From Deltaproteobacteria bacterium (lineage in GTDB: Bacteria; Desulfobacterota; Binatia; HRBIN30; JACQVA1): a stretch of 35,317 nt of DNA. The stretch lies in NCBI GenBank assembly GCA_016210005.1, contig JACQVA010000100.1:1-35317 (forward strand), given 5' to 3'. Shown piece by piece: positions 7,991-29,340 of this stretch (positions are counted from its first letter, which is position 1; every line of letters begins with the position of its first letter). The position numbers and the translations under genes were made by a program. The notes below the pieces were generated by a model, which did not search any database, was not told the origin of the DNA, and saw only the letters and a list, made by a program, of their open reading frames with translations.

Positions 7991-10900
7991 CTAAGCGGTC
8001 TGTGCCAGCTTGGCGCTCTTGGCCTCCGCCCCCGGCACCGGCACGCCGAGATGGCGGCCCAAGGCCTGGACTAGTTGGCTCGCCGACATCGGCAGCTCGC
8101 GGGCCGCACGCAGCGCTTGCTGGCGGAAATCGGCCATGCTGGTGGCATCCGGCAGCAGCACGGCGATGGGCAGATCACGCAGCTTGGCGTCGGAGCGCAG
8201 CCGGCTGATCAGCCGTAGGCCCTCGCCGCGCGGCAGCGCGAAGTCCACCAACACCACGTCGGGCTTGATCATCGGCAGCAGATCGACGGCTTGGCGCACG
8301 TCGAAGGCCACCGAAGTCGAGCAGCGCACGCGCGCCAACACCTCGCGCAGCGCGCCGGTCATCTCGACGTTGTCACTGACGGCCAACAGCCGCTGCACCG
8401 CCCCGCGGCGCTCGAGCAAGCGGGTGACGCAGCTGTCGGGGTCGATCGGGGGAACGAAGAAATCGACCGGGCCGAAGGCAAAACCGCACGAGCCATCGGC
8501 ACAGTAGGCGAAGACGTCGCCGTATTCTTCATCAGCCGTCGCCTGGATGGCGGCGAGCGGATCCGGGGCGCGGTTGAGCAGGTTGACCGCCAGCATCTGA
8601 ACGCCGGGGCCGGCCGGGCGCTTGTTGTCCAAGGCGTTGAGGTAGTTGGACCCGGGCACGCGGGTGAGCACCTCACGCACCGAGTCGCGGAAGGCTTTGT
8701 TCTCTTCGAGATGGACGAAGGTAAGCGGGCCGGAGGTCGTGATCGGGCGCCGGGCCGCGCCGGCTGGTGCTGCCGCGGCTGCCGCCGCCGCTGCCGGCCG
8801 GGACGGTGCGCCGGGGCGTGGCGTCGCCGCCGGTGCCGCCGCAGCCGGCCGCGGCGCTGCCGCCGGCGCGCTCTCCTCCGCTTTCGGCCGCGGCGACCCC
8901 GCCGTCAGCGCGCGCAATTCCTGGAGCTGCTGTTCGATCTCGGCCCGTTCCACCCGCATCGCCGCCAGCTGCGCGATGGCGTCATCACACGCTTGGCGAG
9001 TAAGGCCGAGCTCATCGCTCAGCCGCTGCACTTCTTGCACGCGTGCTTGCAAGGCCTCGTTGCGCTGGTTCAGCTCCACCATGTAGCCGGCGACGGCTGC
9101 CGAATGCCGCTGTACGGCCTCGCCGTGTTGCCGTTCGATCTCGGCGATCTTTGTCTCCAGCCGGGTGATGTCGGCCTTCTGCTTGCGGGACTCGTCGCCC
9201 GCGGGGCGTGGCCGCCGCAGCCGTTCGCACTCGCGTTCGAGCTGGCCGGTCAGTGCGGTCATCTGATCCACACGCAACAGCAGGTCACGGCGCTCGCCAT
9301 CGAGCTCTGCGATCCGCCCCGCCATGGTCTCTTGTGCCTGGAGCGCACTGACGGTTTGCTCCTGGACGGTTTCGAGGTAATGCGTCAGTTCGGCGTTGCG
9401 GCGCTCGGCCGCTGCCAGCGCGGCACGGTACTGGCCGACCTCGCCTTCCGGAACGGTCGCCTGGAGCGCGCGCAACTCGGCCTGGATGGCTTCGATGGTG
9501 GCCGAGCGTTGCGCCGCATCGGCGCGAACCGCTTCCAATTCGCGTTGGAGCTGCAGTTGCGCGGCTTGCCAGGCGAGCTCGCCGCTACGCAAACCCGTGT
9601 GCGCCGCGCCGAGATCGGCCTCCAAGGTCCGCACCCGCTCGGCCAAGGCCACGGCTTGGGCGCGGGCGTCGTCCGCCCGCGCTTGCTCCGCCGCAAGTTG
9701 CCCTGCCATTTCTTCGCGCGCGGCCACCAGCTCCGCTTCGCGTTGGCCGGCGGCCTCGTCCCGCGACCCCTCGCCGGCACCGTTGCTCGCCGCGGCTTCG
9801 AGCTGGGCCACGCGTGCTTGCCGCACCCGCAGTTCCTCTTCCAGCGAGGCAATGCGATTCGAGAGCGAGGTCCTCACGGTGTCGCGCTCGGCCAACTGGG
9901 TTTCGAGGGCGCGCACCTGTACCCGCACGGCTTCCATCGCGATGCGGCGTTTCTCCAGCTCATCCCGCGCCGCTGCCAGCTCGGTTGCGAGCGCCGCCTG
10001 CGTTGCACCCAGGCTCTTTTCGCGCTCCTGCGCCAGCGCGGCCGCGGCTTGCAGCTGTTCATCGTAGCGCCGGCGCGCGCGCTCGCTCTCGGCACTCACG
10101 CTTTCCAAGGCTTCGGTGCGCTCGCCGAGGACAGCTTGCAGCTCGGTCAGCTGCCGGCTCAGCGCTTCGTTCTCGGCGGCCCGCGTGCTGAGCTGCTCCT
10201 CGAACGTCCGTTGCCTGACCTGCGCCACCTCCACGTTCACTTGGCCGGTGGCGAAATCGGCACGGATGCCATCGAGTTCGCGCTGTAGTTGCTCCTGGAC
10301 CGCGACCAGTTCGGCCTCGCGCTCGCGGGCCGTGCGGGTGGCTTCGGTCGCCGTTTGCAGCTCCGCGCTGTACCATTGCGAAAGGGCTTCAGCGTCGCGG
10401 TTGAGCTGCTTGATGACGTGCTCACGCTGGGCGCATTCCGCCTCCAGTTCCGCGACCCGAGCGCGCTCCGCCTCCGCCTCCGCCGCCCCCGCAGCGCGCA
10501 ACTCGGTGAGCGCCCGCTCCAGGTCGCCGCACTGGCGCACGCGTGCATCGCGGTCGGCTTCGATGGCCGCCAAACGGTCCACCAGCGCCGAGCGATCACC
10601 TTCCAGCGCTCCCTGCACTGCTTGCAGCGCCTGCCGGTGTTCATCCTCGCGTTGGCGGGCGGCGGCCTCGAAGAGCGCCCGTTCGCGTTCGCGCTCCTCG
10701 CGCAGCGCGCCCAGCTCCTGCTCGATCTCGGCGCGCAGCTGAGTGGCCGCCAGCAGCTCGGCTTCCAACCCGCGCAGGCGCTCGCCCAGTGTGGTGACTT
10801 CCTCGCGTGCCGTCAGGGCTTCCGACTGCGCCTCTTCGAGCTGGCGAGCGACCTCATCGCGGGCGGCCACCAATTCGGCTTCGCGCTGGCTGGCGGTCTC

Positions 10901-13042
10901 CTGCCAGGCGTTCAGCTCCGCCGTCTGGGCGGTAGCGGCCGCCGCCAGTTGCTCAGCCAGGCAGGCGCGCTGTTGTTGGGCCTCGGCCAGCTGTGCCTCA
11001 AGCGATTGCAAGCGCGCCGCGGCGTCACCCCGCGCCGCCGCTTGGGTGTGGTGCGACTCTTCCAGCGCGGTGTTCAGCTCCTGCTCGCGCTGGCGCAACG
11101 CGGCCAGCTGCGCCTCGAACTGCCGCGCCGCCTCGTCGCGCGCGGCCACCAACTCGGCCTCGCGTTGCGCCGCCGTCTCTTGCCAGCTGCTCAACTCGGC
11201 GGCCTGGGCCGCGCTGGTCTTTTCCAGCTGCTCCGCCGCCTGCGCCCGCCGGTGCTGTTCGGCCACTAGCTGTTCATTGAGCGAGTGCAGCTGCACCTGC
11301 GCCTCCGCCCGCGTCCGCTCGTGCGTTTCCCGCACCTCCGCCAGCACCGTGCTCAGCTCCTGCTCGCGAGCACGAAGTTCGTCGAGTTCAGCGTTGAGTT
11401 GCCGCGTCGCCTGGTTGTGGGCCGCAGCCAAGTCTGCCTCGCGCTGCGCCGCCGTTTCCTGCCAGCGCTTCGACTCGGCTGAGTGCGCCGCCGCGGCCGC
11501 CTCCATTTGCTGAGCTAACCCCGCGCTCTGCTGCCGCGCGGCGGCGAGTTGGTCGTTGAGCTGTTGCACCCGGGCTTGGCCGTCGGCCGAAGCCAGCGCC
11601 TGTGCTTGCTGCGCGGCCGCCAGCGCCGCGCTCAGTTCTTGCTCACGTTGCCTAAAGGCATCGACCTCGCCCGCCAGCTGCTTGACTACGGCGTCGCGCG
11701 CCGCCACCAGCTCGCCCTCGCGTTGCGCCGCGGTCTCTTGCCAGCCGCTCAACTCCGCCGCGTGCGCCGCGCGCTCCGCCTCCAGCTGCGCCAGCGCTTC
11801 GCCACGCTGTTGCTGTTCAGCGGCGCAAGCGGCGCTTGCACGCTCCAGCTGCTCTGCCAAGTCAGCGCGCTGTTGTGCTTGCACCGCCAGCTGTTCATTG
11901 AGCGCCTGCGCCTGTGCCTGTGCCTGCTCTCGTCCCTGGCGCAGTGCTGACAGGGCCGTGCTCAGCTCCTGCTCACGCTGTTGGAACGTCGCCGTTTCGC
12001 CGGCCAGTTGCTCGGCCAGGGCATCGCGCGCGGCCACTAGCTCGGCCTCGCGTTGCGCGGCCGTCTCTTGCCAAGCGCTCAGCTCAGCCGCGTGCTCTGC
12101 GCGCGCGCTCGCCAACTGCTCGGCGGCTTCGGCGCGTTGCTGCACTTCACCACTGAGCTGTTCGCTCAGCGCCAGCAGGCGCGCGGCGGTGTCCGCCTGC
12201 GCCTGTTCATGGGTCTGGCGCAACTCGTCGAGCGCGGCCGCGAGTCCTTGTTCGCGCGCGCACGCGGCGGCAAGGTCGCCATCGAGTTGCCCCAGCTGTT
12301 GCCGCAGCGCCTGTCGCGCCCCGGTCTCATCCGCCAATTGCTGGCGCGCCTGTGCGAGCGCTACCTGCATCTGGTCGCGGTCGGCATGCAGAATGCGCAA
12401 CGTTTCTTCCGCGCCGGCTTGTTGCGCCTGCAGCGCCGCCAGGGTCTGCTGCTGCTCACCCAGTTGCGCCGCCGCGGCCTCCGCCGAGCGTTCGCGCTCG
12501 GCCAACTGCTGCTGCACCTGGGCGACTTGGGCGGTCAGGGCCGCGACGGCAGCCGCGGCGGCGGCCTGCTCCTCCTGCTGCCGTTCGATCTCGGCGACAT
12601 GGATGGCGCTCTCGGTCTCCAGATCCGCGATGCGGCACTGCGCCGTCTCGAGGGCGGCGTTCAACTCGGCGTTGCTGCCCTGGAGTTGCTCGGCCGCGGT
12701 GCGTGTCTGTAGCAATATTTCCTGCCACTGCTCGGCCCGCCTAGCGGCGCTTTGGACCTCGCCTTCCGCGCGCGCACGCACGGCCTGCGCGCTTCGCTTC
12801 AATGCGTCAACCTGCGCCAACGCTTCGCGCAGGCGTGACTCGGTGAGTTGGCCCTTCTCGCGGCTGCCGCTCTCGGCGGCCTGCACCCGCCGAATCAAGG
12901 CGTCGCGCTCGCGGCGCAGCTCCTCGACGGTCGACTGCAGGCAAACCAGATCTTCGAGTGTCGGCGGCGTCTCGCTCGCAACGGAAGCCGGTTTCGCGCT
13001 CGGCAGTTCGGAATCGTCCTGATCGGTCATTACACGGTCCAC
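7991..13042 (-). CDS. Giant coiled-coil protein with C-terminal tandem pseudo-receivers
   Basis: A 1683-residue cytoplasmic protein (no signal or membrane segments) and the last gene of the chemosensory operon. Residues about 20-1380 are Ala/Glu/Gln/Leu/Arg-rich coiled coil. Within it a repeat centred on W-QETAAQREAEL recurs at Trp324, 434, 527, 620 and 713, the last four exactly 93 residues apart. An Ala/Pro linker (about 1385-1435) leads to a receiver-like domain (about 1438-1545) in which the phosphoacceptor strand reads AVNLLNR and the conserved KP is PP. A second receiver (about 1547-1665) keeps the acceptor Asp (LVDFALP) but lacks one acidic-pocket residue (AVSDN), the Thr/Ser and the Lys. 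AglZ and FrzS of Myxococcus pair a pseudo-receiver with coiled coil in the opposite order. It is probably a scaffold or polarity factor. GTG at 13042 directly follows the cheB stop; ATG at 13030, preceded by GAGTGGA, may be the real start. Confidence 0.85.
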   Translation of the reverse strand: MDRVMTDQDDSELPSAKPASVASETPPTLEDLVCLQSTVEELRRERDALIRRVQAAESGSREKGQLTESRLREALAQVDALKRSAQAVRARAEGEVQSAARRAEQWQEILLQTRTAAEQLQGSNAELNAALETAQCRIADLETESAIHVAEIERQQEEQAAAAAAVAALTAQVAQVQQQLAERERSAEAAAAQLGEQQQTLAALQAQQAGAEETLRILHADRDQMQVALAQARQQLADETGARQALRQQLGQLDGDLAAACAREQGLAAALDELRQTHEQAQADTAARLLALSEQLSGEVQQRAEAAEQLASARAEHAAELSAWQETAAQREAELVAARDALAEQLAGETATFQQREQELSTALSALRQGREQAQAQAQALNEQLAVQAQQRADLAEQLERASAACAAEQQQRGEALAQLEAERAAHAAELSGWQETAAQREGELVAARDAVVKQLAGEVDAFRQREQELSAALAAAQQAQALASADGQARVQQLNDQLAAARQQSAGLAQQMEAAAAAHSAESKRWQETAAQREADLAAAHNQATRQLNAELDELRAREQELSTVLAEVRETHERTRAEAQVQLHSLNEQLVAEQHRRAQAAEQLEKTSAAQAAELSSWQETAAQREAELVAARDEAARQFEAQLAALRQREQELNTALEESHHTQAAARGDAAARLQSLEAQLAEAQQQRACLAEQLAAAATAQTAELNAWQETASQREAELVAARDEVARQLEEAQSEALTAREEVTTLGERLRGLEAELLAATQLRAEIEQELGALREERERERALFEAAARQREDEHRQALQAVQGALEGDRSALVDRLAAIEADRDARVRQCGDLERALTELRAAGAAEAEAERARVAELEAECAQREHVIKQLNRDAEALSQWYSAELQTATEATRTAREREAELVAVQEQLQRELDGIRADFATGQVNVEVAQVRQRTFEEQLSTRAAENEALSRQLTELQAVLGERTEALESVSAESERARRRYDEQLQAAAALAQEREKSLGATQAALATELAAARDELEKRRIAMEAVRVQVRALETQLAERDTVRTSLSNRIASLEEELRVRQARVAQLEAAASNGAGEGSRDEAAGQREAELVAAREEMAGQLAAEQARADDARAQAVALAERVRTLEADLGAAHTGLRSGELAWQAAQLQLQRELEAVRADAAQRSATIEAIQAELRALQATVPEGEVGQYRAALAAAERRNAELTHYLETVQEQTVSALQAQETMAGRIAELDGERRDLLLRVDQMTALTGQLERECERLRRPRPAGDESRKQKADITRLETKIAEIERQHGEAVQRHSAAVAGYMVELNQRNEALQARVQEVQRLSDELGLTRQACDDAIAQLAAMRVERAEIEQQLQELRALTAGSPRPKAEESAPAAAPRPAAAAPAATPRPGAPSRPAAAAAAAAAPAGAARRPITTSGPLTFVHLEENKAFRDSVREVLTRVPGSNYLNALDNKRPAGPGVQMLAVNLLNRAPDPLAAIQATADEEYGDVFAYCADGSCGFAFGPVDFFVPPIDPDSCVTRLLERRGAVQRLLAVSDNVEMTGALREVLARVRCSTSVAFDVRQAVDLLPMIKPDVVLVDFALPRGEGLRLISRLRSDAKLRDLPIAVLLPDATSMADFRQQALRAARELPMSASQLVQALGRHLGVPVPGAEAKSAKLAQTA
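10870..12073 (-). repeat. Coding tandem repeat, 279-bp (93-residue) period
   Basis: Five related units lie inside the coiled-coil gene. Equivalent positions on the plus strand are 10870, 11149, 11428, 11707 and 12037, giving steps of 279, 279, 279 and 330 bp. The longer step carries a 17-residue insertion. Units encode WQETAAQREAELVAARD followed by a REQELxxAL element. Nucleotide similarity is high at the core and lower between units, so duplication is probably not very recent. Confidence 0.8.
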
Positions 13043-14248
13043 TCACACCGACGCCCGGCGGTCGTCGATGACCACGCACGATAATTCAGTCACCGGCGCG
13101 GCCGGCCGGCCGTCGACGCCGACGGCCGCGCACAGGTATTCGGCCAGGCGTGCCGGGGGAAACTGCAAGGCGGCGCAGCCCGCCTTCACCGCCGCCCCCG
13201 GCATGCCCCAAACCACCGAGCTAGGTTCGTCCTGCGCCAATGCGGCCGCGCCGTTGCTGCGCAAGGCTTTCATCCCCTCCACGCCGTCGTCGCCCATGCC
13301 GCTCAGCAGTACCGCTTGCACGCGGTGGGCGACGGCGCGCAGGCTGTCGAACAGTACATCGACGCTGGGGCGGTGCAGGTTGCGCCGGCCGCCGGCGTGC
13401 AGCTTGATGTGCTCGTCGGCGACCTCCATGTGCAGACCGCCGGGGGCAATGTAAGCAACCCCGGGCACCAACGGGTCGCCATGGCGCGCCTCGACCACGG
13501 TCAAGGCGCAGCGCTGGTCCAGGCAATGGGCCAAGTCGCTGGTGTAGCCCGGCGGCATGTGCTGGACGATCAATAGGCAGCCGCGAAATCCGAACGGGAT
13601 CGACGGCAGCATTTCCCCCAGCGCAGCCGGGCCGCCGGTCGAGGAGCCAATTGCCACGATCGGCAGCAGCTCCTTCTTGCCGGGCTTCTCTTTGCGCTCG
13701 ACGCGGGGCCGCTGCGGTTCGTGGGTGCTGCTCAACGGTGCCACCGCCGCCGGCCGCCGCATCATGCCGAAGGCAGCGCTGCGCACCACCCGCACGCGGG
13801 CGGCGGCTCGTACTTTGAAGCGAATCTCCTCCGCTTGCAGGTCCAAGTCCAAGCTGACACCGACTCGCGACGGTTTCTCCACGATCTCCACCGCACCGTA
13901 GGTCATCGCCTGAGCCGCCGCCTTGCCGCCGCGTTTGGTGTACGAGCTGATAATGACAATCGGGACCGGATGGCGCCCCATGATGACCTCGGTGGCACGC
14001 AGGCCGTCGACGTGCGGCATGTTCACGTCCATGGTGACGGCGTCCGGGCGCAGCCGTTGGGTCAGCTCGATCGCTTCGGCGCCGTCGCGCGCCGTTGCGA
14101 TGACTTCGATATCGCCTTCAGCTTGCAGGATGTGGGTAATCGTCCGGCGCATCATGCCGGAGTCGTCGGCCACCACCACGCGCAAGCGCCGCGCGCGTTC
14201 GGCCGTCCCATCGTCCTCAGCCAGAGCCCTCACCCCTGATGCCGGCAT
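13043..14248 (-). CDS. cheB: Chemotaxis methylesterase CheB (ChpB position)
   Basis: This 401-residue protein is a two-domain CheB that removes methyl groups from (and deamidates) the MCP for adaptation. The receiver domain (about 22-135) has acidic pair Asp28/Asp29, acceptor Asp74 (TMDVNMP) and KP at 125-126. After a basic linker the methylesterase domain (about 195-385) has the triad Ser203 (GSSTGGP), His230 (VQHMPPGY) and Asp321 (GMGDDG). The start ATG at 14248 is 26 bp after cheA; the stop abuts the GTG of the coiled-coil gene, so translation is probably coupled. An extra 20-residue N-terminus before the receiver is somewhat longer than usual. Confidence 0.95.
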   Translation of the reverse strand: MPASGVRALAEDDGTAERARRLRVVVADDSGMMRRTITHILQAEGDIEVIATARDGAEAIELTQRLRPDAVTMDVNMPHVDGLRATEVIMGRHPVPIVIISSYTKRGGKAAAQAMTYGAVEIVEKPSRVGVSLDLDLQAEEIRFKVRAAARVRVVRSAAFGMMRRPAAVAPLSSTHEPQRPRVERKEKPGKKELLPIVAIGSSTGGPAALGEMLPSIPFGFRGCLLIVQHMPPGYTSDLAHCLDQRCALTVVEARHGDPLVPGVAYIAPGGLHMEVADEHIKLHAGGRRNLHRPSVDVLFDSLRAVAHRVQAVLLSGMGDDGVEGMKALRSNGAAALAQDEPSSVVWGMPGAAVKAGCAALQFPPARLAEYLCAAVGVDGRPAAPVTELSCVVIDDRRASV

Positions 14249-14274: not shown

Positions 14275-17200
14275 CTAATCCGCCACCGCAGGAGCGCCGG
14301 GGTCAGGCGCGGGGCTGCCCTGTGTGAGTCGTTCGATCTCGATCAGCAGCTGTTCCTTGGTGAACGGTTTGGTGATGTAGCCTTGTGCGCCCGCCTCGCG
14401 CGCGCGGCGCCGGTGCTTGTCACTCGAGCGCGAGCTACAGACGATCACGGGCAACTCCTGGAAGCGCGGATGGCGGCGAATTTCGGTGATCAACTCGTAG
14501 CCGTGCATGCGCGGCATCTCGAGGTCGGTCACTACTAGGCGGAAGCGGCCGCTGGCGAGCTTCTCCAGGGCGTCGAGCCCATCGACGGCGGTGTCGACTT
14601 CGAGGCCGGCGCTTTCGAGAAAGCGCGCCGCCAGCTTGCGCACGCTGATCGAGTCGTCGACCACCAAGATGGAACGAGCCTCGACCGGGGCCTGGTCGGA
14701 GGCCTCGGCCATGATGAAGGTGGCCTGGCGATCGGCCACTGAGGCCAGCACGTCGAAGAGCCGGCCGACGTGGAGTACGAAGATCACGGCGCCGGCGCCG
14801 GAAATCGTTGCCCCCGACAGGAACGGATGGGCCTCGAGCACGCGCCCGAGCGGTCGGATCACCACTTCCTGCTGCGCCTGGACGCGATCGACGATCAACG
14901 CCATGGCGCGATCACCGGCGCGCAGGACTACAGCGACGGCGGCAGTGGCGGGAACGTTCTCGCCTACCAGCGGTGCCATCAGCAACACCGGCAGCAGCTC
15001 GTTGCGCACCTTCAGCATGCGCTGGCCGTCGACCAACACGAGGTCACTCATGTCGATGGCGATTACCTGCTCGACGAAATCGACCGGCAAGCCGTACACC
15101 TGCGGTCCGCTCTCCAGCAGCAGCACTTCGTCGATCGAGGTGGTGGTCGGCAGCGCGACGCGGATCGTGGTACCCTGGAGGTCCTTCGAATCCACCAACA
15201 GGCTGCCGTTGAGCGCGGCAATCTCACGCGCGACCACGTCCATACCCACACCGCGCCCCGAGATGTCGGTCACCGTCGCCCCGGTACTGAAGCCGGCGCG
15301 GAAGATCAGCGGCAGCAGCTGCTCGCGGTTGGGGCTGACGTAGGGTTCAATCAGCCCGAGCGCGCGCCCGCGGGCGAGAACCGCCTCGAAATCGATACCA
15401 CCGCCGTCGTCGTGTACCGCCAGCAGGACGCTGTTGTGGCGCTGGCTGGCTACCAGCCGGATCTCGCCGACCGTCCGTTTACCCCGCTTCTGCCGCATCA
15501 CCGGTGACTCGATACCGTGGGAGACGGCATTGCGGACCATGTGCAGCAGGGGGGCGTAGAGCGACTCGACGATGGACTTGTCGAGTTGCACGTCGGAGCC
15601 CTCGAAATGCAGATCGACCAGTTTCCCCTCTTGCCGGGCGGCATCGCGCACCGGTCGCAGCAGCCGGCGGAACAGGGTGTCGAGCGGCACCAGGCGCAAG
15701 CGAGTGATTTGGCGCTGCAGGCCGGAGGTGATCTTGGAGAACTGGCGTGCTTCTTCACCGAAGGCATCGATGAAGGTACCGAGCTGGTCGGCGATCTCGC
15801 CGGTGTCGGTGGCCAACTCGATCACGCTGCGGGCGAGGATGTTGAAGTCGTCGTATTTGTCGAACTCGAGGTCGGTGAAGAAATCATCTTCCGGCGTCGC
15901 CCGGCCGCCCTCGCTATCGCTGCCGGCCGCGCGCGCGGCCAGAGCGACCGGGCGGTCGCCGGTATTGAATTCGTAGCGCTCCTGAAAGCCTTCGATGATC
16001 TCCGCCAAGCGCGTGCGCGAATAATAGAGCTTCTCGCGCAATTCACCGAAGGCCTGGATCTTACGGTCCATGCGGGTGCGGCTGACCACCAGCTGGCCGA
16101 CTTGGTTCATCAAGGCATCGAGGCGGGCGGCCTGTACGCGTACGATATTGGTTTCGGCGTCCGAGGCGCGCGCCGCCAGGGCTTCGGAGAGCGCCGGGGC
16201 TTCGGGCTCACCCGCCGGCAACAGCGCCGGTTCCAACGCTTCCGCGCCGGCCGCGGCCGGCGTCGCGGTGGTCAGGGCGGCGACTTCCGCGGCCACGTCG
16301 CTGATTACGGCACGCTGCTCATCGTGCACGCCGCGGCTGCGGTTGATCAGTTCGGTGACCGAGTCGGTCAGCCGGAACAGGAAATCGACCAAGCGGGCGG
16401 CATCGACCGCCAGCTCGCCGTCAAGCACGGCGTCAAGCAGAGATTCACCATGATGGAGCTGGCCGGACACGCTTTCGAGGCCAACGGCTGCGGCGGCGCC
16501 CTTGAGCGTGTGGAAGTGGCGGAACAGCGCCTGGAGCAGCGTGCGATCATCGGGCTGATGTTCCAGATCCAGCAGTAGTTGTTCGCAAGCCTCGATGGCC
16601 TCGGTGGCGTCGATGGTAAAGGCGTCGAGCAACTCGCGCTCGAGTGCGACGCCCGCGGCATCGGCGGCTGCCGGCAGCGGCACCACCGGCGCCGGCAGCT
16701 CCGGTGCCTGCTGGTTGGCGGCAGCGAACAGCCGGCCCATCGCCGCTTGTGCGTTGGCGAGGAACTCGGCCGACAGCGGAATCAGCTCGGGCTGTTCCGC
16801 GGCAGCGCCGAAGCCGTCTTGGAGCTGTTTGGCGATCTTCGAGAGGTCTTCCAAGCCCACCATCGCCGCGGAGCCTTTGATGGTGTGAAAGATCCGCGAC
16901 AGCTGGTGGCAGGCCGCCGACTGGGTCTCCGCCGCCGCCAGGCGCGCTACCAGCTCCGGTACCCGTTCGAGGTACGATTCGAGCTCGGCCGCGAAAACCT
17001 CCGCCAGCTCTTTGGCCCAGGCCTCATCGGCTTCCGCATCGCCATCGCCGGGGCCGGCCGCCTCGGCGGCATCGTCCGTCGCGCTCTCGCCCGGCGGTAC
17101 CTGCGACAGGGACTCCTCGGCCGCTTCGGTCTTGCCGGCGGCAAAGACGTCCACCTCGTGCAGGTAGCTACGCACCCGCGGTGAGAATCCCATCACCATT

Positions 17201-17574
17201 TCGGTGTAGAGGTTTTCTTGCGTCTCGGGGTTGGCGCCGGCGAGGCAATCGTCGAGCAAGGGTTCGATGAGCGCAAGCGCGTCCTGCATTTGGCGAAAGA
17301 TCGCGAGCGCTTCGCCGACATCGCTGTTGAGGTAGGTGCTGGCCACCTCGGCCACGCGGTCGACCACGGCCCCGACTCGGCTGAGGTAGGTCAACCCCAC
17401 CAGTGAGGCGGTGCCTTTGAGCGAATGCCCAAGTGCGCGCAGCTCATCGAGCGCGACTGAGTCGTTCGGGTTACTGAGCAATTGCGCCAGCCGCTCGCGC
17501 ATGCCTTGGGCGAAGCGCCGCACGTCATCGCGGAACAGGTCCTTGATCGAGTCGATGGTAAAGCGGTCGGCCAT
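14275..17574 (-). CDS. cheA: Hybrid CheA kinase with three HPt domains and C-terminal receiver
   Basis: A 1099-residue histidine kinase, the centre of the chemosensory pathway. Three HPt domains carry phosphorylatable His50 (HSLKG), His230 (HTIKGSA) and His355 (HTLKGAA). Dimerisation helices (about 475-625) are followed by the ATPase domain with N-box Asn682 (MVRNAVSHGIE), G1 DDGGGID and G2 GRGVGMD. Then come a CheW-like domain (about 812-945) and a receiver (about 968-1085) with Asp973/974, acceptor Asp1017 (VTDLEMP) and Lys in ITKPF. All catalytic motifs are intact. Multiple HPt domains plus a terminal receiver are the hallmark of ChpA/PilL-type kinases that control type IV pili. A short acidic stretch (about 555-575) breaks the dimerisation region. 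Its ATG overlaps the cheR stop by one base (TAATG). Confidence 0.95.
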   Translation of the reverse strand: MADRFTIDSIKDLFRDDVRRFAQGMRERLAQLLSNPNDSVALDELRALGHSLKGTASLVGLTYLSRVGAVVDRVAEVASTYLNSDVGEALAIFRQMQDALALIEPLLDDCLAGANPETQENLYTEMVMGFSPRVRSYLHEVDVFAAGKTEAAEESLSQVPPGESATDDAAEAAGPGDGDAEADEAWAKELAEVFAAELESYLERVPELVARLAAAETQSAACHQLSRIFHTIKGSAAMVGLEDLSKIAKQLQDGFGAAAEQPELIPLSAEFLANAQAAMGRLFAAANQQAPELPAPVVPLPAAADAAGVALERELLDAFTIDATEAIEACEQLLLDLEHQPDDRTLLQALFRHFHTLKGAAAAVGLESVSGQLHHGESLLDAVLDGELAVDAARLVDFLFRLTDSVTELINRSRGVHDEQRAVISDVAAEVAALTTATPAAAGAEALEPALLPAGEPEAPALSEALAARASDAETNIVRVQAARLDALMNQVGQLVVSRTRMDRKIQAFGELREKLYYSRTRLAEIIEGFQERYEFNTGDRPVALAARAAGSDSEGGRATPEDDFFTDLEFDKYDDFNILARSVIELATDTGEIADQLGTFIDAFGEEARQFSKITSGLQRQITRLRLVPLDTLFRRLLRPVRDAARQEGKLVDLHFEGSDVQLDKSIVESLYAPLLHMVRNAVSHGIESPVMRQKRGKRTVGEIRLVASQRHNSVLLAVHDDGGGIDFEAVLARGRALGLIEPYVSPNREQLLPLIFRAGFSTGATVTDISGRGVGMDVVAREIAALNGSLLVDSKDLQGTTIRVALPTTTSIDEVLLLESGPQVYGLPVDFVEQVIAIDMSDLVLVDGQRMLKVRNELLPVLLMAPLVGENVPATAAVAVVLRAGDRAMALIVDRVQAQQEVVIRPLGRVLEAHPFLSGATISGAGAVIFVLHVGRLFDVLASVADRQATFIMAEASDQAPVEARSILVVDDSISVRKLAARFLESAGLEVDTAVDGLDALEKLASGRFRLVVTDLEMPRMHGYELITEIRRHPRFQELPVIVCSSRSSDKHRRRAREAGAQGYITKPFTKEQLLIEIERLTQGSPAPDPGAPAVAD

Positions 17575-18488
17575 TAGCGTACGCTCCTGGTTCCGCTGGC
17601 GGCCAAGCGGTTCGAGCCGGGGAGTTCGGCACCCAGCCCGAAGTTGGCGGCCGGCCGCACGATGCGGCGAAAGATGACCGTGCCGTTAGTGCGAATGGGC
17701 TCGAGGATATCGCGGTAGGCTTGCAGGGAATCGGCGAAGCCGGCGACGAAGAAGCCGCCGCGCCGCAGCGCCGCCACCAAGTTGCGCACCACGCCATCGC
17801 GCTGGGTGCCCTGGAAGTAGATCAGCACGTTGCGGCAGAAGATGACGTCGACCTGGGTGATCGGCAGGGCATCGGCGAGGTTGCAGCGCAGCCAGCGCAC
17901 CGCCCGCCGCAGTTCGGGGCTGACCTCGTAGTGCTGGCCGGCCGGGCGGAAGTAGCGCTCGCGCCGCCAGGACTCGAGCATGGCGACATCGCGAGCGGGG
18001 TAGAGTCCGCGCGCCGCTTTGTCGATAGCCTCGCCGCTGACGTCCAAACCGACCAGCTCGACTTCGAGTTCTTCGAGCAAGGGCCGTGACTCTTCGGCGA
18101 TCATGGCCATCGAGTAGGCCTCTTGTCCGGTCGAGCAGCCGGCGCTGACCAAGCGCACCCGCCGCCGGCCGTCACGAAGTGTTTCACGCACCAGCTGGGG
18201 GAAGATGAAGCGCGCCAGGGCATGGAAATGCGCCAGGTCGCGCAAGAAGCTGGTCTCGTGAATGCACAATCGTTCGATCAGTGTCTGCAGCTCGCCGCCG
18301 CCGGCGGGGCTTTCCTGCACCAGGCGGGCGTAGTCGCCGAAACCGATCCGCAACTCGCGCAGGCGCGCGGCCACCTGATTGTTCAGGTATGACTCGTGTG
18401 GCCCGCCCAGGTACAGGCCGCAGCGAGCCGCCACGGTGTCACGCACCCAGGCCACCTGCCACTCCGGAAGTTCAAGGGTGCGTGTCAT
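17574..18488 (-). CDS. cheR: MCP methyltransferase CheR (PilK position)
   Basis: A SAM-dependent glutamate methyltransferase of 304 residues acting on the adjacent MCP. The N-terminal helical domain (1-80) includes HETSFLRD, the family NETxFFRD signature. The methyltransferase domain has SAGCSTGQEAYSMAM (SAM loop), LVGLDVS and DVIFCRNVLIYF. No C-terminal pentapeptide-binding TPR region is present. The ATG at 18488 is chosen over a GTG at 18494; both sit in the same GTGGCCATG context, and AGGTGG lies just before the ATG. The gene lies 30 bp after the MCP gene and overlaps cheA by one base. Confidence 0.93.
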   Translation of the reverse strand: MTRTLELPEWQVAWVRDTVAARCGLYLGGPHESYLNNQVAARLRELRIGFGDYARLVQESPAGGGELQTLIERLCIHETSFLRDLAHFHALARFIFPQLVRETLRDGRRRVRLVSAGCSTGQEAYSMAMIAEESRPLLEELEVELVGLDVSGEAIDKAARGLYPARDVAMLESWRRERYFRPAGQHYEVSPELRRAVRWLRCNLADALPITQVDVIFCRNVLIYFQGTQRDGVVRNLVAALRRGGFFVAGFADSLQAYRDILEPIRTNGTVIFRRIVRPAANFGLGAELPGSNRLAASGTRSVR

Positions 18489-18518
18489 GGCCACCTACGC
18501 GGGAGCACGGCGCCGGCG

Positions 18519-21128
18519 TCAAATCGTAGTCTGCCCGTTACCCGGCCGCTGCGCCGGTTCCTGCTCCAGCGGTATCAGTTGTGCCGCGGAGGCCTCGGCC
18601 TTGCCATTGCCGACGGCTTCGACGCGGAAGAGGCCGATCTGCTGGTTCAGCTCGCTCGACACTTGGATCAGCGCGGCGGTGCTGTGCTGGGTTTGTTCCG
18701 AGGACACCTGCGCCTGGCGGGCGACATCGGAAATACTGAGCATGGCTTCGCTCAGGCTGGTCGCGCCGCGCACCTGTTGGTTGGCGGCGAGCGAGATCTC
18801 AGCGATCAGCTCGGCGCTTTGGACCGAGGCGCGCAGGATGCGTTCGAGCGCGTTGCCGGCTTCGGTGACCATGCCGGTCTGCTGTTCCACGTGTTCGGAC
18901 TGCCGCTCCATGCCGCCGACCGATTCGTTGGTTTCGGCCTGGATCGCCGCGATCAGGCGGGCGATTTCCTCGGCGGCGCCTTCGGTACGTTCGGCGAGTT
19001 TACGCACTTCGTCGGCGACGACGGTGAAGCCCAGGCCGTGTTCGCCGGCACGCGCGGCCTCGATGGCGGCGTTGAGGGCGAGCATGTTGGTTTGCGCCGA
19101 GATTTTTTGGATGGTGTTGATGATGGTGGAGATTTCCATCGAGCGTTCGCCCAGCCGTTTGATCTTCACGGCCGAAGCGCGGGTATTCTTCTGCAGCGCG
19201 TCCATGCCGGTGATCACGCGTTTGACGACGTCGCCGCCTTGGTGGGCGGCTTCCTCGGCGCGTTTGGCGGCTTCGGCGGCGACGGTGGCGTTCTCCGACA
19301 CCGACTGGATGTTCGAGGTCATCTCCTGCACTGCGGCGGTGGTGCTGGTGATGTCGCTGGTTTGCCGCGACGACCCTTGCGCCAGCTGTTCGGCGGAGGC
19401 CTGAATCTGAGTGGCGGAGCTGACCACGCGCGCCGACACGCTCTTGAGGTGTTTGACCAGTTCGCCGACGTTCTCGAACATCAGGTTCAAGGCGTCGGCG
19501 AGGTTGCCGAGCACGCCGCTGCCGACTTCGGCGCGGGCGGTCAGATCGCCTTCGGAGGCGCCGGCCACCACCGTGAGCAGGTGGCGAATCTCGTTCTGCA
19601 AGCGGCGGTTGTCTTCTTCGGCTTGCACCAGCGAATCGACCCGTTCATCGAGCATCTGGTTGAAGCCGCGGGCGAGGACGCCGAGTTCGTTGCGAGCTTT
19701 GACCTTGACGCGGGCGCGGAAGTTGCCCTCTTGAATCTCACGCATGGTGCCCGCCAGGGCGCGCACCGGGCTGGAGATGCGCGAGGCCAGCAGCAGCGCC
19801 ACCAAGACGAAGCCGCCGATGAGGCCGCCGCCGAGGGTCGCCGTCAAGTTGCGCAAGCGGATGACGGGCCGCATGGCTTCCTCTTCGGCAATCTCGGCGA
19901 TGATCAGCCAGTTCAAGCCGCGCAAGCCATCGAGCCAGGTCGAGGCGCCGAGCACCGACACATTGCGGTAGTTGAGGTAGCTCAGAGCCACCACCGCTTC
20001 GCTCTCCTCGGTGCGCGGCGGTGGATATTCATGGGCGTCGGCACCTTGAATAGCGCCTTCGGATTCGACTTTCTGGCCTAGAATAGTGGTGCCGCTCAAT
20101 GCGATCTCAGGGTTGTTCTCCTTCAGTTGGTCGAGAAAGCGTGAGTCGTTACGCATGAAGAAGTCGTTGGCATTGCGGCCGATGAGGTAGACCTCGCCGG
20201 TCTCGCCCAGTCCGACCGCTTCCCACTGCTTGTCGGAGGTCATGATGTTGTTGATGCGATCGATCGGCACCTGCACGATCAACATGCCGATCTTCTGGCC
20301 GTTTTCGAAGATGCCGGCACCGGCGAACAGCAACGGCTTGCCGTGGGCGGGCAGGTAGGGGGCGAAATCCATCAGCAGGTAGTCGCCTTCGCGCGACTCG
20401 ATTTGCAGCCGGCGGAAGAGTTTGCCGATGCTGGAGTTAGCATACGGGCCGTCGAGCAGGCTGGTTTGGAACTCGGGGCCCTTGCCCACGCTGTAGGTAA
20501 TGCGCCCGTTGTTGGCGTCGACCAGGTAGAGATCCTGGAAACCGAATTTCTCCACCATGCCGCGAAAGACCGGCTGCCAGACGGCGTGATACGAGCCGTA
20601 GCGGCTGCCGTCGCTGGGGTCGCTGAGCAGGTACTTCTTGCCTAGCGGGTTCGGGTTCATGGCCATGTAGGTGGCTTGCAGCCAGACGGCGGAGCGCTGG
20701 GGCAGCAGGAGCGAGCGCAGATCGAGCTTCTTATCCGCGAGTTCCTTCTTGTAGTAGGTTTCGACGAACTTCTTGAGAGCACCCATGCGCTCGCGCATGT
20801 TCTCGGTGGCGGTGATCGGGTCGTCGTCGAGTTCGCGCGTGGCATTGCCGAATTGCTTGGCCGCCAGCAGCGTGGCGGGGTTGCGCGCGACGGTGACGAC
20901 CTGGTCTTCGACCAGCTGGAAGTGGCGCTCGATTTCGCGCTTCTTCCCGTCGCGCACCGATTGCAGTTGGCGCAACGCCTGTTCGCGCATTGATTCGGAC
21001 GCGACCTGATAGCTGCGCCAGCCCAGGAAGGTCATCGCGGCGACGGCTAGCGGCACGAAGGCCAGCAGCACTTGCCAGCGGATCGCCAGGCGGAAGCCTC
21101 GGTCGGCGGTTGCATTTTTGGCGGCCAT
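18519..21128 (-). CDS. Methyl-accepting chemotaxis protein, large periplasmic sensor, two HAMP domains (PilJ position)
   Basis: An 869-residue transmembrane receptor. TM1 is about 18-37. A periplasmic region of nearly 400 residues (38-430), with features of a double-Cache-type sensor (FQDLYLVDANNGRITYSVGKG; GEVYLIGRNAND), is followed by TM2 at about 432-449. HAMP1 is about 449-501 (ending LARGFNQMLDERV) and a second HAMP-like unit about 514-565 (SEGDLTARAEV...LADALNLMF). The signalling domain has the highly conserved hairpin tip SAQTNMLALNAAIEAARAGE (677-696) and VADEVRKLAERT. P. aeruginosa PilJ occupies the same operon position but has a different sensor, so the stimulus here is probably different. 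GGAGGGG precedes the ATG. Confidence 0.93.
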   Translation of the reverse strand: MAAKNATADRGFRLAIRWQVLLAFVPLAVAAMTFLGWRSYQVASESMREQALRQLQSVRDGKKREIERHFQLVEDQVVTVARNPATLLAAKQFGNATRELDDDPITATENMRERMGALKKFVETYYKKELADKKLDLRSLLLPQRSAVWLQATYMAMNPNPLGKKYLLSDPSDGSRYGSYHAVWQPVFRGMVEKFGFQDLYLVDANNGRITYSVGKGPEFQTSLLDGPYANSSIGKLFRRLQIESREGDYLLMDFAPYLPAHGKPLLFAGAGIFENGQKIGMLIVQVPIDRINNIMTSDKQWEAVGLGETGEVYLIGRNANDFFMRNDSRFLDQLKENNPEIALSGTTILGQKVESEGAIQGADAHEYPPPRTEESEAVVALSYLNYRNVSVLGASTWLDGLRGLNWLIIAEIAEEEAMRPVIRLRNLTATLGGGLIGGFVLVALLLASRISSPVRALAGTMREIQEGNFRARVKVKARNELGVLARGFNQMLDERVDSLVQAEEDNRRLQNEIRHLLTVVAGASEGDLTARAEVGSGVLGNLADALNLMFENVGELVKHLKSVSARVVSSATQIQASAEQLAQGSSRQTSDITSTTAAVQEMTSNIQSVSENATVAAEAAKRAEEAAHQGGDVVKRVITGMDALQKNTRASAVKIKRLGERSMEISTIINTIQKISAQTNMLALNAAIEAARAGEHGLGFTVVADEVRKLAERTEGAAEEIARLIAAIQAETNESVGGMERQSEHVEQQTGMVTEAGNALERILRASVQSAELIAEISLAANQQVRGATSLSEAMLSISDVARQAQVSSEQTQHSTAALIQVSSELNQQIGLFRVEAVGNGKAEASAAQLIPLEQEPAQRPGNGQTTI

Positions 21129-21140
21129 GATAGACCCCTC

Positions 21141-21707
21141 CTATTTGTTACTCAGCGGCACAGCGCGGCCGATTGGCGCCGCTTCATCGGCGCGGCCCGG
21201 CAGGCGCTGTTGAAAGCGCGCACTCACGACGTTGACGGCTTCGGCAACCAATTTGTCGGCATCGAGCACGGTTACCACCCCGGTTGCAGCCGGCCAGTAT
21301 CTGCGGGAGAGCGGATTAGCCGCCGGCCCGCTGGGATAATCTTGCATCTCACCGGCATCGATCGAGCGCACATCGCGAACCCGATCGACGGCCAAGCCGA
21401 TGTCCACCTCGCCGCAGGTGAGCACCAAAATCTGATCGCCCGGCGTGTAGGGCCGGGCGGGCATATCGAGCAGACTATCGAGCTGCACCAGCGGCAGCAC
21501 CTCTCCGCGCAGGTTGATCACCCCGATCAGCGAGGGCGGCGCCTGCGGCACGGGGGTGGCCGGCTCGCCGGTGAGCACCTCGCGCGCGGCGGTCACGCTG
21601 ATGGCGTAGTCGCGCCCGGAGCGAGTGAAAATGCAATAGTCCTCGCCCAGGTGAGCCAGCCGCGCGCTCAGCCGGGTGGCGAGATCGAAGTGGGCCTCAG
21701 TGCTCAC
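21141..21707 (-). CDS. cheW: CheW adaptor (PilI position)
   Basis: A 188-residue CheW that couples the MCP to the kinase. The domain (about 22-165) shows the usual pattern: YCIFTRSGRDYAISVTAAREVL, PSLIGVINLRGEVLPLVQL, and LVLTCGEVDIGLAVDRVRDV. Additional residues at both ends are hydrophilic. The start codon is GTG, overlapping the stop of the upstream PilH-like gene as GTGA, which indicates translational coupling. Stop is 12 bp before the MCP start region. Closest functional equivalent by synteny is PilI. Confidence 0.92.
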   Translation of the reverse strand: MSTEAHFDLATRLSARLAHLGEDYCIFTRSGRDYAISVTAAREVLTGEPATPVPQAPPSLIGVINLRGEVLPLVQLDSLLDMPARPYTPGDQILVLTCGEVDIGLAVDRVRDVRSIDAGEMQDYPSGPAANPLSRRYWPAATGVVTVLDADKLVAEAVNVVSARFQQRLPGRADEAAPIGRAVPLSNK

Positions 21708-22063
21708 GCGTACCTCTTCACGATCGACACCAGATCCGAGGGGCTGAAGGGCTTGGCCAGATAGTCGATCGCACCCTGCTTCTGGCCCCAGAAGCGGTCG
21801 CTCTCGCCGTTCTTCGAGCTCACCATAACCACCGGGATATCCTTGGTCAGCGTGTCACGTTTGAGCTGGCGGCAGGTGGCGAAGCCGTCCTGGCCGGGCA
21901 TGACGATGTCGAGCAAGATGATATCCGGTCGATCCGCGCGCGCGCGCTCCATCGCCTCGACTCCAGTGCTGGCCTGGATGCAATCGTAGCCTTGCGGCGA
22001 GAGCACGTTGGCGATCAACTGCACTTCGCTGCGAATGTCGTCGACAATGAGAACCTTTGGCAT
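21704..22063 (-). CDS. pilH: Single-domain response regulator, PilH type
   Basis: A 119-residue CheY-like receiver with Asp8/Asp9, acceptor Asp52 (LLDIVMPG), Ser in VMVSSKN and Lys in LAKPF: all phosphorylation residues are present. The segment SDRFWGQKQGAIDYLAKPF closely matches the TDKVWGKRQGARDYLTKP region of Pseudomonas PilH, more than enteric CheY, supporting a type IV pilus output or phosphate-sink role. It overlaps the following cheW by 4 bp. Function by synteny is inference. Confidence 0.9.
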   Translation of the reverse strand: MPKVLIVDDIRSEVQLIANVLSPQGYDCIQASTGVEAMERARADRPDIILLDIVMPGQDGFATCRQLKRDTLTKDIPVVMVSSKNGESDRFWGQKQGAIDYLAKPFSPSDLVSIVKRYA

Positions 22064-22093: not shown

Positions 22094-23509
22094 TCAGGCC
22101 ACCGGTTGAACCTCGGCGAAATCGGCGGCGGCCATCACCGGCACGTTCGGCGGCGGCGCCGCGCTCAGTTCCCGTTCGAGATCGAAAGCGCACTCCAGCA
22201 CCTTGGTGATCCCGCGCTCGGCCAGAGCCGCGCTACGCGCCTGGGGATCGTCGTGGCCGTTGCCGCTGGCGCGGCTGGGATTGGCCAGGCCGATCACGGT
22301 CAGGCTGCGAGCTTCCGGCATCCGCTGCAGTTGCCGCAGCTGATCCCAGAGCGCGCCGGCGCCGGTGACCTCGGCGATCAAATGGGTCGGGCCATAGAGC
22401 CGGGTCATCATCGGCAGCTGGCGAAAGCCTTCAGTGATGGTGAAGATCTGCCACTCCGGGTGGGCCAGGGCCAGCGCGCGCAGCTGCTCGTGGACCGCGC
22501 TGTCGCGATGGCAGGCGATCAAGACCCGCTGGCGCACGGGCGCCAGGTCGGCCTCCACCGCTCCAACCACCACGGCGCGGAAGAGCAGGCGGCAGGCGCG
22601 ACGAAAGACGTCGAGCAAGGTGTCATCCAACGAGCGAACCGAGCCATCACCGTAGAGCGTGTGGCGTGCCCCCGAGCGCGCGTGCTGCAAGCTCTCGCCC
22701 AACTCGTGCGTCAGGCTCTCGATCAGATCGGTGTACGAGCGCGCTTGGTCGGCCGCCGCCCCGGCGGGGGTATCGACCTCTTCGACATAAACGCCTTCGA
22801 GACCGGCGCGCAGGGTCTCGAACATCACTTCGAGCAGCTCGCGGCGGGCGCCGTCGTTGAGAGTGGTAACGGCGACCTCGGCGGCTTCCTCGGCTTCGGC
22901 CTCGTCGATTTCTTCGAGTCGAGCCGCCAGCGGCTGCGGCTCGCGCGCCGCTGAGCCGCCGTTGAGCGGCGGTACTTCGAGCAAGGGCATCGTGGCGGCC
23001 AAGCTCGGCGCCGCCGCCGGCAGTTCGGGAATGATCACGGCCGGCGGTACGGCAATCGGCTCGAGCGCCGGCCGCGCGGCGGGGAAGATCGCCGCCTCCG
23101 GCACGGGCGCGGTCTTGACCAGCTCACCGCCGGCCGCTTTGGCCAACACCTCGGCCACTAAGTTGATGACGATTTGCGGCTTGAACGGCTTGGCAATGTA
23201 GCTGACGACGTTGCCGATATCCTCGTACGCTTGGCGAATCTCGGCGCCCTTGGCCGAGATCAGAATCACCGGGATGTTGGCGGTGTCGGGGTCTTCGGCC
23301 AGCCGGCGGCAAACTTCGGTGCCGCGCATATCAGGCAGAATGAAGTCCAACAGAATCAGCGCCGGCTTGGTGGCTTTCGCCTTCTCGATGGCTTCGGTGC
23401 CATCGGCGGCGAGGTCGAGCATGTAGCCCGCGGGCTTGAGGACGATTTCGAGCGCCTTACGAATTGTGAGGCTGTCGTCGACGCCGAGAATCCGCGGCTT
23501 CTCATCCAT
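22094..23509 (-). CDS. REC protein with C-terminal pseudo-receiver (PilG position)
   Basis: A 471-residue protein. The N-terminal receiver (about 5-125) is intact: Asp11/Asp12, acceptor Asp55 (LLDFILPD), Ser in VILISAKG and Lys in IAKPFKP. A Pro/Ala-rich and then acidic linker (about 130-215) is followed by a helical region (about 220-310) and a receiver-like fold (about 315-445) beginning RVLIACHRDSAVHEQL, in which the acceptor strand reads HLIAEVTG and no KP is seen, so it is a pseudo-receiver. In Pil-Chp operons the equivalent position holds PilG. The long C-terminus may bind an output partner such as the coiled-coil protein; that is inference. Confidence 0.87.
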   Translation of the reverse strand: MDEKPRILGVDDSLTIRKALEIVLKPAGYMLDLAADGTEAIEKAKATKPALILLDFILPDMRGTEVCRRLAEDPDTANIPVILISAKGAEIRQAYEDIGNVVSYIAKPFKPQIVINLVAEVLAKAAGGELVKTAPVPEAAIFPAARPALEPIAVPPAVIIPELPAAAPSLAATMPLLEVPPLNGGSAAREPQPLAARLEEIDEAEAEEAAEVAVTTLNDGARRELLEVMFETLRAGLEGVYVEEVDTPAGAAADQARSYTDLIESLTHELGESLQHARSGARHTLYGDGSVRSLDDTLLDVFRRACRLLFRAVVVGAVEADLAPVRQRVLIACHRDSAVHEQLRALALAHPEWQIFTITEGFRQLPMMTRLYGPTHLIAEVTGAGALWDQLRQLQRMPEARSLTVIGLANPSRASGNGHDDPQARSAALAERGITKVLECAFDLERELSAAPPPNVPVMAAADFAEVQPVA

Positions 23510-23575: not shown

Positions 23576-24586
23576 CTAGCGGGCGTGCCGGCCACGGCGC
23601 TCTTCCCCCAGCTGCTCGCTGGTCTCGACCAGCAGCCACACCGCGGACTCGTTGATCCGTTGCGGCTGCACCGGCGACTCGGCCGCGACGAAGCGGTAGT
23701 TGCCCTCACGTGTGCTCAGGATTCGTTTGAACGCGCCACGCCCCCAGATGCCGGCGGCGCAAGCATCGGCAACGCGGCCGGCGTCGAGGAAGACCTTGGC
23801 CGGCGCACCATCGGGAGTCTCAACCGCGAGTTCGCCGGTTCGGCGGGCGGTGCTAAGCGCAATCAGGTCGCGCATCAACGTATCGCCGCCCAAATCGCCG
23901 GCGACGAGGTCGAGTCCGGTTGCTGACTCGCTCTCCTGCAGCGCTTTGAGCAAGGCCTTGGCGGCATTCGCAGCGCGCGGGCGGCCGTTACGGCGCACCA
24001 GGCGCCCGAAGGTCTTGAGCGCGGCCGCCGTCGGCGCGCGCCGCAACTCGACGGCGACGGCGGCGATCTTGTCCTGGCGATCGCGGAATGCCAGCGCTTC
24101 TTTGAGCAGCGGCTCCAGCTTCTCGCGCAAAGCCCCGCTCAGGATGCGGTTGGGCTCTAACAACGCGTGCAGCCGGCCCTCAATGTCAACCAGGTGTCCG
24201 ACGCTGAGTCCGCCGTCGTGCACCAGATTAGTGGCCACCGGAGCCTTGGTCCGGAGATCGAGTTCGCGCACGCCGCTGCAGCCATCGACCGGCAAGGCGA
24301 GCAAAAATGAACCTGCGCGCACAATCATGAACGCAGCCCGCTCGGTAACCCCGAGCAACTCGGTCAAGCCGAAGGCCTCGCGCAGATCCACCACCAGGGC
24401 GGGCTGCCCGCGGTGCAGCAGGAACGGCCGAGTGCTCTCACCGGCTTTGGCCGTGTGGAGCACCGCCTCGTCACGCTGATAGACGGCTTCGACCCAGTCG
24501 AGGTGGACGCAGAAGCACCCGTCATCGACACCGAAGACGAGAACGCGTGCTGTGCGAGATGCTTCTGCTATCGCTGTGCTCATCAT
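23576..24586 (-). CDS. CheW-like / DUF4388 fusion protein
   Basis: A 336-residue protein and the first gene of the operon. Residues about 12-150 form a CheW-like domain (VFGVDDGCFCVHLDWVEAVY; FLLHRGQPALVVDLREAFG; GSFLLALPVDGCSGVREL). A helical, basic linker follows (about 155-215). The C-terminus (about 222-330) resembles DUF4388/PatA N-terminal domains: LAGDLGGDTLMRDLIAL, RTGELAVE, KVFLDAGRVADACAAGIWG, EGNYRF. DUF4388 occurs in cyanobacterial PatA-type regulators and in myxobacterial regulators. Fusion to CheW suggests an adaptor that brings an output or multimerisation module to the array. Start ATG-ATG at 24586 has GGAGG upstream. Stop is 66 bp from the next gene. Confidence 0.85.
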   Translation of the reverse strand: MMSTAIAEASRTARVLVFGVDDGCFCVHLDWVEAVYQRDEAVLHTAKAGESTRPFLLHRGQPALVVDLREAFGLTELLGVTERAAFMIVRAGSFLLALPVDGCSGVRELDLRTKAPVATNLVHDGGLSVGHLVDIEGRLHALLEPNRILSGALREKLEPLLKEALAFRDRQDKIAAVAVELRRAPTAAALKTFGRLVRRNGRPRAANAAKALLKALQESESATGLDLVAGDLGGDTLMRDLIALSTARRTGELAVETPDGAPAKVFLDAGRVADACAAGIWGRGAFKRILSTREGNYRFVAAESPVQPQRINESAVWLLVETSEQLGEERRGRHAR

Positions 24587-26875: not shown

Positions 26876-26947
26876 AGCCCCTCCTCTCGCTCGCGGGTGG
26901 GTTCCCTAGCCCATGCGCTGCGTCAATGCCAACCGCCGCGCGGCGGC

Positions 26948-29068: not shown

Positions 29069-29340
29069 CTGCGCCCCTCCTGCGCGCGGCAGACACTGCA
29101 ATCGCCGTGCTAGACGCGCAGTAGCGCTTCAACCCGCCATAGGTCAAGTCCGGCGCCCGGGTGCCCGACGCATGTTGGACGACTCGTCAACTGAGTAGCG
29201 CAATTTTGTGCGCGCTCCAGGGCTTCAAAACCGCCGCCGTCCGGACTATCGTGCTGGCATGGCCTCTGCTTCGTAATGTGCGGAACTTCGGCTCCGGTCG
29301 ATGTTGACCGCAGAGATGTCGGCCGAAGAAAGGGTGCTAC
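29069..29340. other. Divergent 272-bp region between DUF1329 paralogues
   Basis: No gene seen. It must carry promoters for both divergent genes. A sigma-54-like site lies on the plus strand at 29255-29270; for the minus-strand gene only a weak TTGACC-type -35 (near 29155) without a good -10 was found. Confidence 0.5.
29255..29270 (+). promoter_or_regulatory. Candidate sigma-54 promoter of DUF1329 paralogue 2
   Basis: TGGCATGGCCTCTGCT matches the TGGCAC-N5-TTGC plan with GG at -24 and GC at -12 in the correct 10-bp gap. The predicted transcript would start near 29281, giving a leader of about 60 nt with AAAGGG before the ATG. No activator site was identified. Confidence 0.4.

Follow-up and report, generated by a model that had tools for sequence, protein, structure and literature searches.

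To our knowledge, receiver-coil proteins linking chemosensory systems to surface motility are understood mainly from Myxococcus. AglZ and FrzS of Myxococcus xanthus consist of a receiver plus an extended coiled coil, which covers 1076 residues in AglZ and 235 residues in FrzS (PMC4546325). Both proteins are tied to Frz, a chemosensory system that governs gliding or pili (PMC4546325, PMC1974792). PATAN regulators (PixG and others) of cyanobacterial type IV pili were described to interact with PilB and PilC (PMC12288463, PMC10519157). A bacterial domain made of a motif and a coiled coil, present in 2-8 tandem copies in one family, is reported for DivIVA-like proteins (PMC9858780). As portrayed there, these are cell-division proteins of Gram-positive bacteria with another motif, and no relation to the protein described here is claimed.

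The window, i.e. the whole stretch of DNA that was analysed (35,317 nucleotides), belongs to contig JACQVA010000100.1 of Deltaproteobacteria bacterium. On its minus strand an open reading frame of 1683 codons was found at 7991-13042 (coil gene), in whose product a long coiled coil is followed by a Pro/Ala linker, then by a receiver-like domain and finally by a receiver. An alternative start, an in-frame ATG, lies four codons after the GTG. The parts outside the repeat array are:

7991..13042, minus strand: whole gene, 1683-aa coiled-coil, receiver-like and receiver protein, GTG start at 13040-13042
12074..12985, minus strand: N-terminal coil block, residues 20-323, resembling relatives, with the ADLETES anchor at residue 139
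8732..8893, minus strand: Pro/Ala-rich linker, about residues 1384-1437, from sequence, bounds by eye
8405..8722, minus strand: receiver-like domain with no match in Pfam, about residues 1441-1546 as delimited in the model
8048..8389, minus strand: receiver domain, about residues 1552-1665 (Pfam Response_reg 1553-1645)

Heptad-like periodicity was observed across most of residues 20-1350, being weak around residues 1070-1190; this and all further register analyses were simple moment analyses rather than the output of a trained coiled-coil predictor. The rod comprises ~1360 residues, is mostly coiled coil and, at the coiled-coil rise of 0.15 nm per residue, measures ~200 nm if fully extended. 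An SMC- or Rad50-like identity was rejected, as the NCBIfam SMC models remained far under their cut-offs (best 62.8 versus 567 bits) and sub-cut-off matches of this kind are expected for any long coil. Scanning the window with Rfam at gathering thresholds and for tRNA yielded nothing, and a search for plasmid relatives of the window gave no match. A literature search, most subscription journals lying outside its coverage, yielded no title on the coil protein.

The coil gene was found to be the last of an operon of chemosensory genes, with intergenic gaps from -4 to 66 bp; CheB and the coil gene abut with a gap of 0 bp. In the direction of transcription, the preceding genes are:

23576..24586, minus strand: CheW-DUF4388 protein, first gene of the conserved cluster (Pfam)
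22094..23509, minus strand: receiver protein RR471, 471 aa (Pfam)
21704..22063, minus strand: single-domain receiver, CheY-like (Pfam)
21141..21707, minus strand: CheW-like protein (NCBIfam CheW 38 bits, under the cut-off of 260)
18519..21128, minus strand: methyl-accepting chemotaxis protein (Pfam HAMP and MCPsignal; dCache under cut-off)
17574..18494, minus strand: CheR (Pfam)
14275..17574, minus strand: CheA with three Hpt stretches and a C-terminal receiver (Pfam)
13043..14248, minus strand: CheB, directly upstream of the coil gene (Pfam)

DUF4388 is what we take to be the Pfam entry for PATAN. The likeness to the PATAN regulators of cyanobacterial pili therefore lies in the first operon gene; here, however, DUF4388 is fused to CheW instead of a receiver and stands outside the rod protein. 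This fusion of CheW to DUF4388 (23576-24586) might connect the system directly to the pilus motor. Next to the operon lie one DUF1302 and two DUF1329 proteins (window 24875-31317). No pilus gene turned up in a Pfam scan of 17 window proteins. At genome level, all 15 genomes of the order had PilT-family (TIGR01420) matches above the curated cut-off, as did 5 of 14 controls; such matches are no proof of twitching. Flagellin (PF00669) was found in 0 of 15 genomes of the order and in 4 of 14 controls. The Arf-family search for an MglA-like GTPase was negative in all 15 genomes, yet also in all 14 controls. The chemosensory system probably acts on type IV pili in this Binatota bacterium.

The nearest genome compared (G001) belongs to another genus of the same family. 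It showed an identical order of the whole operon with the coil gene last. In G010, G006 and G004 the operon order was kept without CheR and CheB, and in G013 CheA adjoins the coil gene on a 6-kb contig. More distant versions of the coil gene were located near che genes (L045, L046, L049, L050), while for the G007 relative, 42% identical in the C-terminal part, no che match was obtained within 20 kb, mostly on one side of the gene. A search with the C-terminal 284 residues gave hits at E 1e-20 in 12 of the 15 genomes in the order, counting the one that carries the window; class-wide the C-terminal part was detected in at least 34 of 148 genomes at 1e-12, with up to 16 candidates scored per genome. 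The array part was detected class-wide in at least 2 of 145 genomes with up to 15 candidates per genome, a lower bound on its spread since G013 was not among the matches, and order-wide with a longer query in 3 of 15 including G013. A scan of named genomes gave 15 loci, of which 3 were close (a Candidatus Binatia MAG, Bacterium HR30 and a groundwater 'Deltaproteobacteria' MAG); on the basis of these the window probably falls into Candidatus Binatota. The remaining 12, mostly from Actinobacteria, were weak (E 6e-7 or worse) and were taken for general receiver matches.

The C-terminal 246 residues contain both the receiver-like domain and the receiver. For the second one, Pfam profile and fold agreed: PF00072 scored 37.2 bits against a cut-off of 30.2, and in Foldseek its model (mean pLDDT 71) matched the receivers of DivK, Spo0F, CheY and FrzS. 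FrzS receiver structures were among both sequence and fold matches, alongside many other receivers. The first domain had no Pfam match and is receiver-like, judged by the strand and helix order in a model of moderate confidence. The acceptor Asp was invariant in ten aligned C-termini, while the acid pair before it was reduced to one or none in 9 of these 10, L055 having Glu-Asp. In the window receiver the phospho-acceptor Asp is kept together with one pocket acid, and the usual Thr and Lys are absent by eye. The window receiver may therefore be unable to accept phosphate. Paralogues of the receiver pair were observed in the window's own genome on another contig (L057:9760-11052, 431 aa) and in G001 (L056:9878-11080, 401 aa), in which an N-terminal zinc ribbon (Pfam for L057, by eye for L056) replaces the long coil.

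With AglZ and FrzS, the coil protein shares a receiver plus an extended coil, an atypical receiver and probably a tie to a chemosensory system, a che operon being present at the coil gene. Several differences became visible. The coil gene sits inside its che operon. In AglZ and FrzS the receiver is N-terminal, the coil C-terminal and the phosphorylation site missing, whereas in the coil protein the coil lies ahead of Response_reg at 1553-1645 of 1683 and the acceptor Asp is retained. Given the C-terminal position of its receivers and the retained Asp, we did not file the coil protein with AglZ and FrzS. It may nevertheless work like these two, which link Frz to motility, and most likely connects the chemosensory proteins with the pilus machinery.

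The coil carries a tryptophan repeat. Trp occurs at residues 106, 324, 434, 527, 620, 713, 890 and 1158 of the 1683-aa protein. The initial annotation had listed residues 324, 434, 527, 620 and 713 with spacings of 110, 93, 93 and 93, which is correct (codons 12071-12073, 11741-11743, 11462-11464, 11183-11185 and 10904-10906). The three Trp outside the array (106, 890, 1158) were missing from its list. The five are all Trp within 324-713. The proposed exact spacing of 93 holds for the last three steps, not for the first with 110. Based on Trp spacing and unit comparison, the array was divided as follows:

11795..12124, minus strand: repeat unit 1, residues 307-416, 110 aa, Trp 324
11516..11794, minus strand: repeat unit 2, residues 417-509, 93 aa, Trp 434
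11237..11515, minus strand: repeat unit 3, residues 510-602, 93 aa, Trp 527
10958..11236, minus strand: repeat unit 4, residues 603-695, 93 aa, Trp 620
10838..10957, minus strand: unit 5, first part, residues 696-735, Trp 713, followed by the relatives' continuation

The repeat is real and goes beyond a coincidence of Trp codons. At a lag of 93 residues, 163 of 428 positions were identical within residues 240-760 versus 14% expected (z 14.2). Over the coil (1399 residues) lag 93 gave a z of 8.3 versus 3.7, the 95th percentile of the largest z among 200 heptad-block shuffles. In gap-free alignments units 1-4 shared 39-53 of 93 residues pairwise (42-57%) and 53-67% of their DNA. TRF found no tandem repeat in the array at the DNA level, a result to be expected with copies so diverged. 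Recent slippage is disfavoured, synonymous sites being near saturation. The possibility that an assembly error or chance created the periodicity, raised initially and thinkable for a 268-contig assembly, is hardly credible, since the longest exact repeat in the coil gene is 19 bp, which makes short-read multiplication or collapse of units unlikely, the DNA of the units is as diverged as stated, the flank lengths agree exactly with an independent genome (see below), and a real problem would resemble the more uniform repeat gene of G001, which stopped at two contig ends.

Conservation within the unit is uneven. In the 22 residues around Trp, 176 of 220 residues were identical in the window units versus 206 of 498 in the rest, in line with a real Trp-headed unit with a better conserved core. 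Four-fold third bases agreed at 50 of 87 sites in the core (0.57) and at 49 of 116 in the rest (0.42), with 0.39 expected. The core identity looks to be mostly due to selection rather than recency; since agreement at four-fold sites is slightly higher in the core, gene conversion possibly contributed some share. In 15 unit instances from three genera, Trp was found 15 times, Ala+4, Arg+7, Glu+8 and Leu+11 14 times each and Gln+1 13 times; these instances were chosen with motif patterns, and part of their conservation is a selection effect. From the spacing Leu -3, Trp 0, Ala +4 and Leu +11, the Trp probably occupies a core position beside small residues.

In order to trace the origin of the array, its flanks were compared with those of relatives. 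A Trp lies exactly 82 residues before the motif [AG][RQ]QR[ED] in 6 of 6 orthologues (window, G001, G013, G010, G006, G004), the Trp having been chosen by eye in the last three. In the window this is Trp 713. The QREAEL core was absent from the orthologues of G010, G006 and G004, which retain the Trp and match loosely downstream of it. On the other side, the distance from ADLETES to the first unit Trp, obtained by subtraction, is 185 residues in both the window (Trp 324) and G001 (Trp 311), while ADLETES and Trp are 132 residues apart in G013 and 125 in G010, G006 and G004. Of all units, the stretch before Trp 324 gave the best fit to G001 (score 259 versus 117-152 for the other four), and the part following Trp 713 gave the best fit both to G001 (248 versus 78-125) and to G013 (171 versus 70-112). 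Against G013 the stretch before Trp 324 did not single out unit 1 (78, other units 70-83). At this site the window therefore has 389 extra residues compared to G001, five units versus one, between equal flanks of 185 and 82.

Unit number differs across related genomes: alignment gave 5 in the window, while a strict pattern gave 3 for G001 and 1 for G013. This pattern was run on the open reading frames of 31 loci, of which L058-L060 are second copies of L039-L041, and is blind to diverged sites such as those found by eye in G010, G006 and G004. Most simply, one ancestral unit would have been duplicated in tandem: with one unit in G013 and one Trp each in G010, G006 and G004, expansion in the window is simpler than repeated loss.

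The unit was also found elsewhere in G001. In the orthologue, strict Trp units lie at 311, 715 and 874 (spacings 404 and 159). For the unit at 715 (L038) a counterpart without Trp was seen in the window, where residues 1097-1148 (~9599-9754) aligned with G001 718-769. A second G001 coil gene stops at the ends of contigs C31 (L100:1-2094, minus strand) and C7 (L086:2-4372, plus strand), and we infer that the two pieces represent one gene. The C31 piece consists of a receiver 61% identical (76/124) to that of the 471-aa-type operon protein of G001, followed by a linker and a coil whose first part is similar to the beginning of the window coil (score 304 versus a maximum of 158 in 100 heptad-block shuffles). 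The C7 piece carries Trp units at 24, 144, 349, 469 and 606 and a more diverged one at 722 (spacings 120, 205, 120, 137 and 116). The receivers of RR471 and of its G001 counterpart are, among those compared, closest to this coil-fused receiver. The second G001 protein has the receiver-then-coil order of AglZ and FrzS, and its gene looks like a fusion from two genes of one operon. Judged from these sequences, the Trp unit is shared and re-amplified, the spacing of 93 being seen in the window only.

How does a step of 93 residues fit a coil? As pointed out initially, 93 is a multiple of neither 7 nor 11. It does equal 7 heptads plus 4 hendecads, i.e. 26 core layers at 3.58 residues per layer. 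Among the seven periods tried, the unit-averaged hydrophobic signal was strongest at 3.55 (0.309), followed by 3.6 (0.281), 3.5 (0.225) and 3.667 (0.121). With this composition and this peak the unit length can fit a continuous coiled coil, and in the moment analysis the heptad phase drifted gradually along the array with no jumps. A single-sequence monomer model (mean pLDDT 69, pTM 0.26) was helical over residues 290-760 save two short breaks. These Gly-containing breaks (model 193-196 and 377-381) correspond to residues ~482-485 and ~666-670 (~11588-11599 and ~11033-11047) and occupy nearly equal places in units 2 and 4. The model gives only a hint that they could be hinges.

Taking all data together, we lean toward the coil protein being a scaffold or output protein of a probably pilus-acting chemosensory system, with the Trp heads as multiplied contact sites. 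The receiver part would listen to CheA or hold chemosensory proteins. The rod, presumably dimeric, would carry the signal to the pilus machinery or position it at a distance, and each Trp head would be a contact point, used for partner docking or lateral rod assembly. Repeated docking sites, a role suggested for the units initially, are possible in this sense. More unit copies would then mean more sites on a rod ~58 nm longer, and the step of 93 would simply reflect the length of what was copied, a length that the coil tolerates since it accommodates 26 core layers.

Plain lengthening of the rod ranks not far behind the contact-site reading and is a real, if lesser, possibility. Internal duplication would be easy, the copies would need helix alone, and the Trp core would serve coil packing with no docking. 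The capacity of 93 residues to keep the coil phase suits this explanation, and other internal lags stand out as well, namely 78 and 39 in the window (partly within the array) and 92 and 78 in G001. Moreover, the lengths of the relatives vary widely, with open frames from 401 to 1683 aa, some of them ended by contig edges. The Trp core, however, shows roughly twice the conservation of the remaining unit, recurs in the second G001 protein and has its Trp kept at the corresponding site in all six orthologues, which speaks against this reading.

A molecular ruler, in which exact steps of 93 residues (~14 nm) put partners at fixed distances, had been named initially, beside repeated docking sites, in preference to a plain rod and now appears improbable. 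Three spacings of exactly 93, the 82 residues after the last Trp in 6 of 6 orthologues and the 185 residues before the first Trp in the window and G001 would agree with it. Against it, the first step is 110, the spacing was not kept in the nearest relative (404 and 159) or in its second coil protein (116 to 205), the ADLETES-to-Trp distance is 132 or 125 in the other four orthologues, and one-unit relatives have a similar operon.

Returning to the contact-site reading, a more far-reaching form of it would make the Trp unit a portable contact module, multiplied separately in two receiver-coil proteins, with the copy number setting the number of partners per ~200 nm rod. We regard this as tentative and rather doubtful. 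If true, it would represent a tunable signalling scaffold holding partner molecules or neighbouring rods; we know of no such tunable scaffold in any chemosensory system. Outside Myxococcus, the locus indicates that another lineage has a receiver-coil protein inside a che operon with the domain order reversed, and that a relative with the Myxococcus-like order seems to combine a receiver derived from an adjacent gene of the operon with a coil of the window type. Furthermore, it offers a natural copy-number series, from one to five units of one motif in one place, by which the effect of coil length or motif number becomes directly testable.
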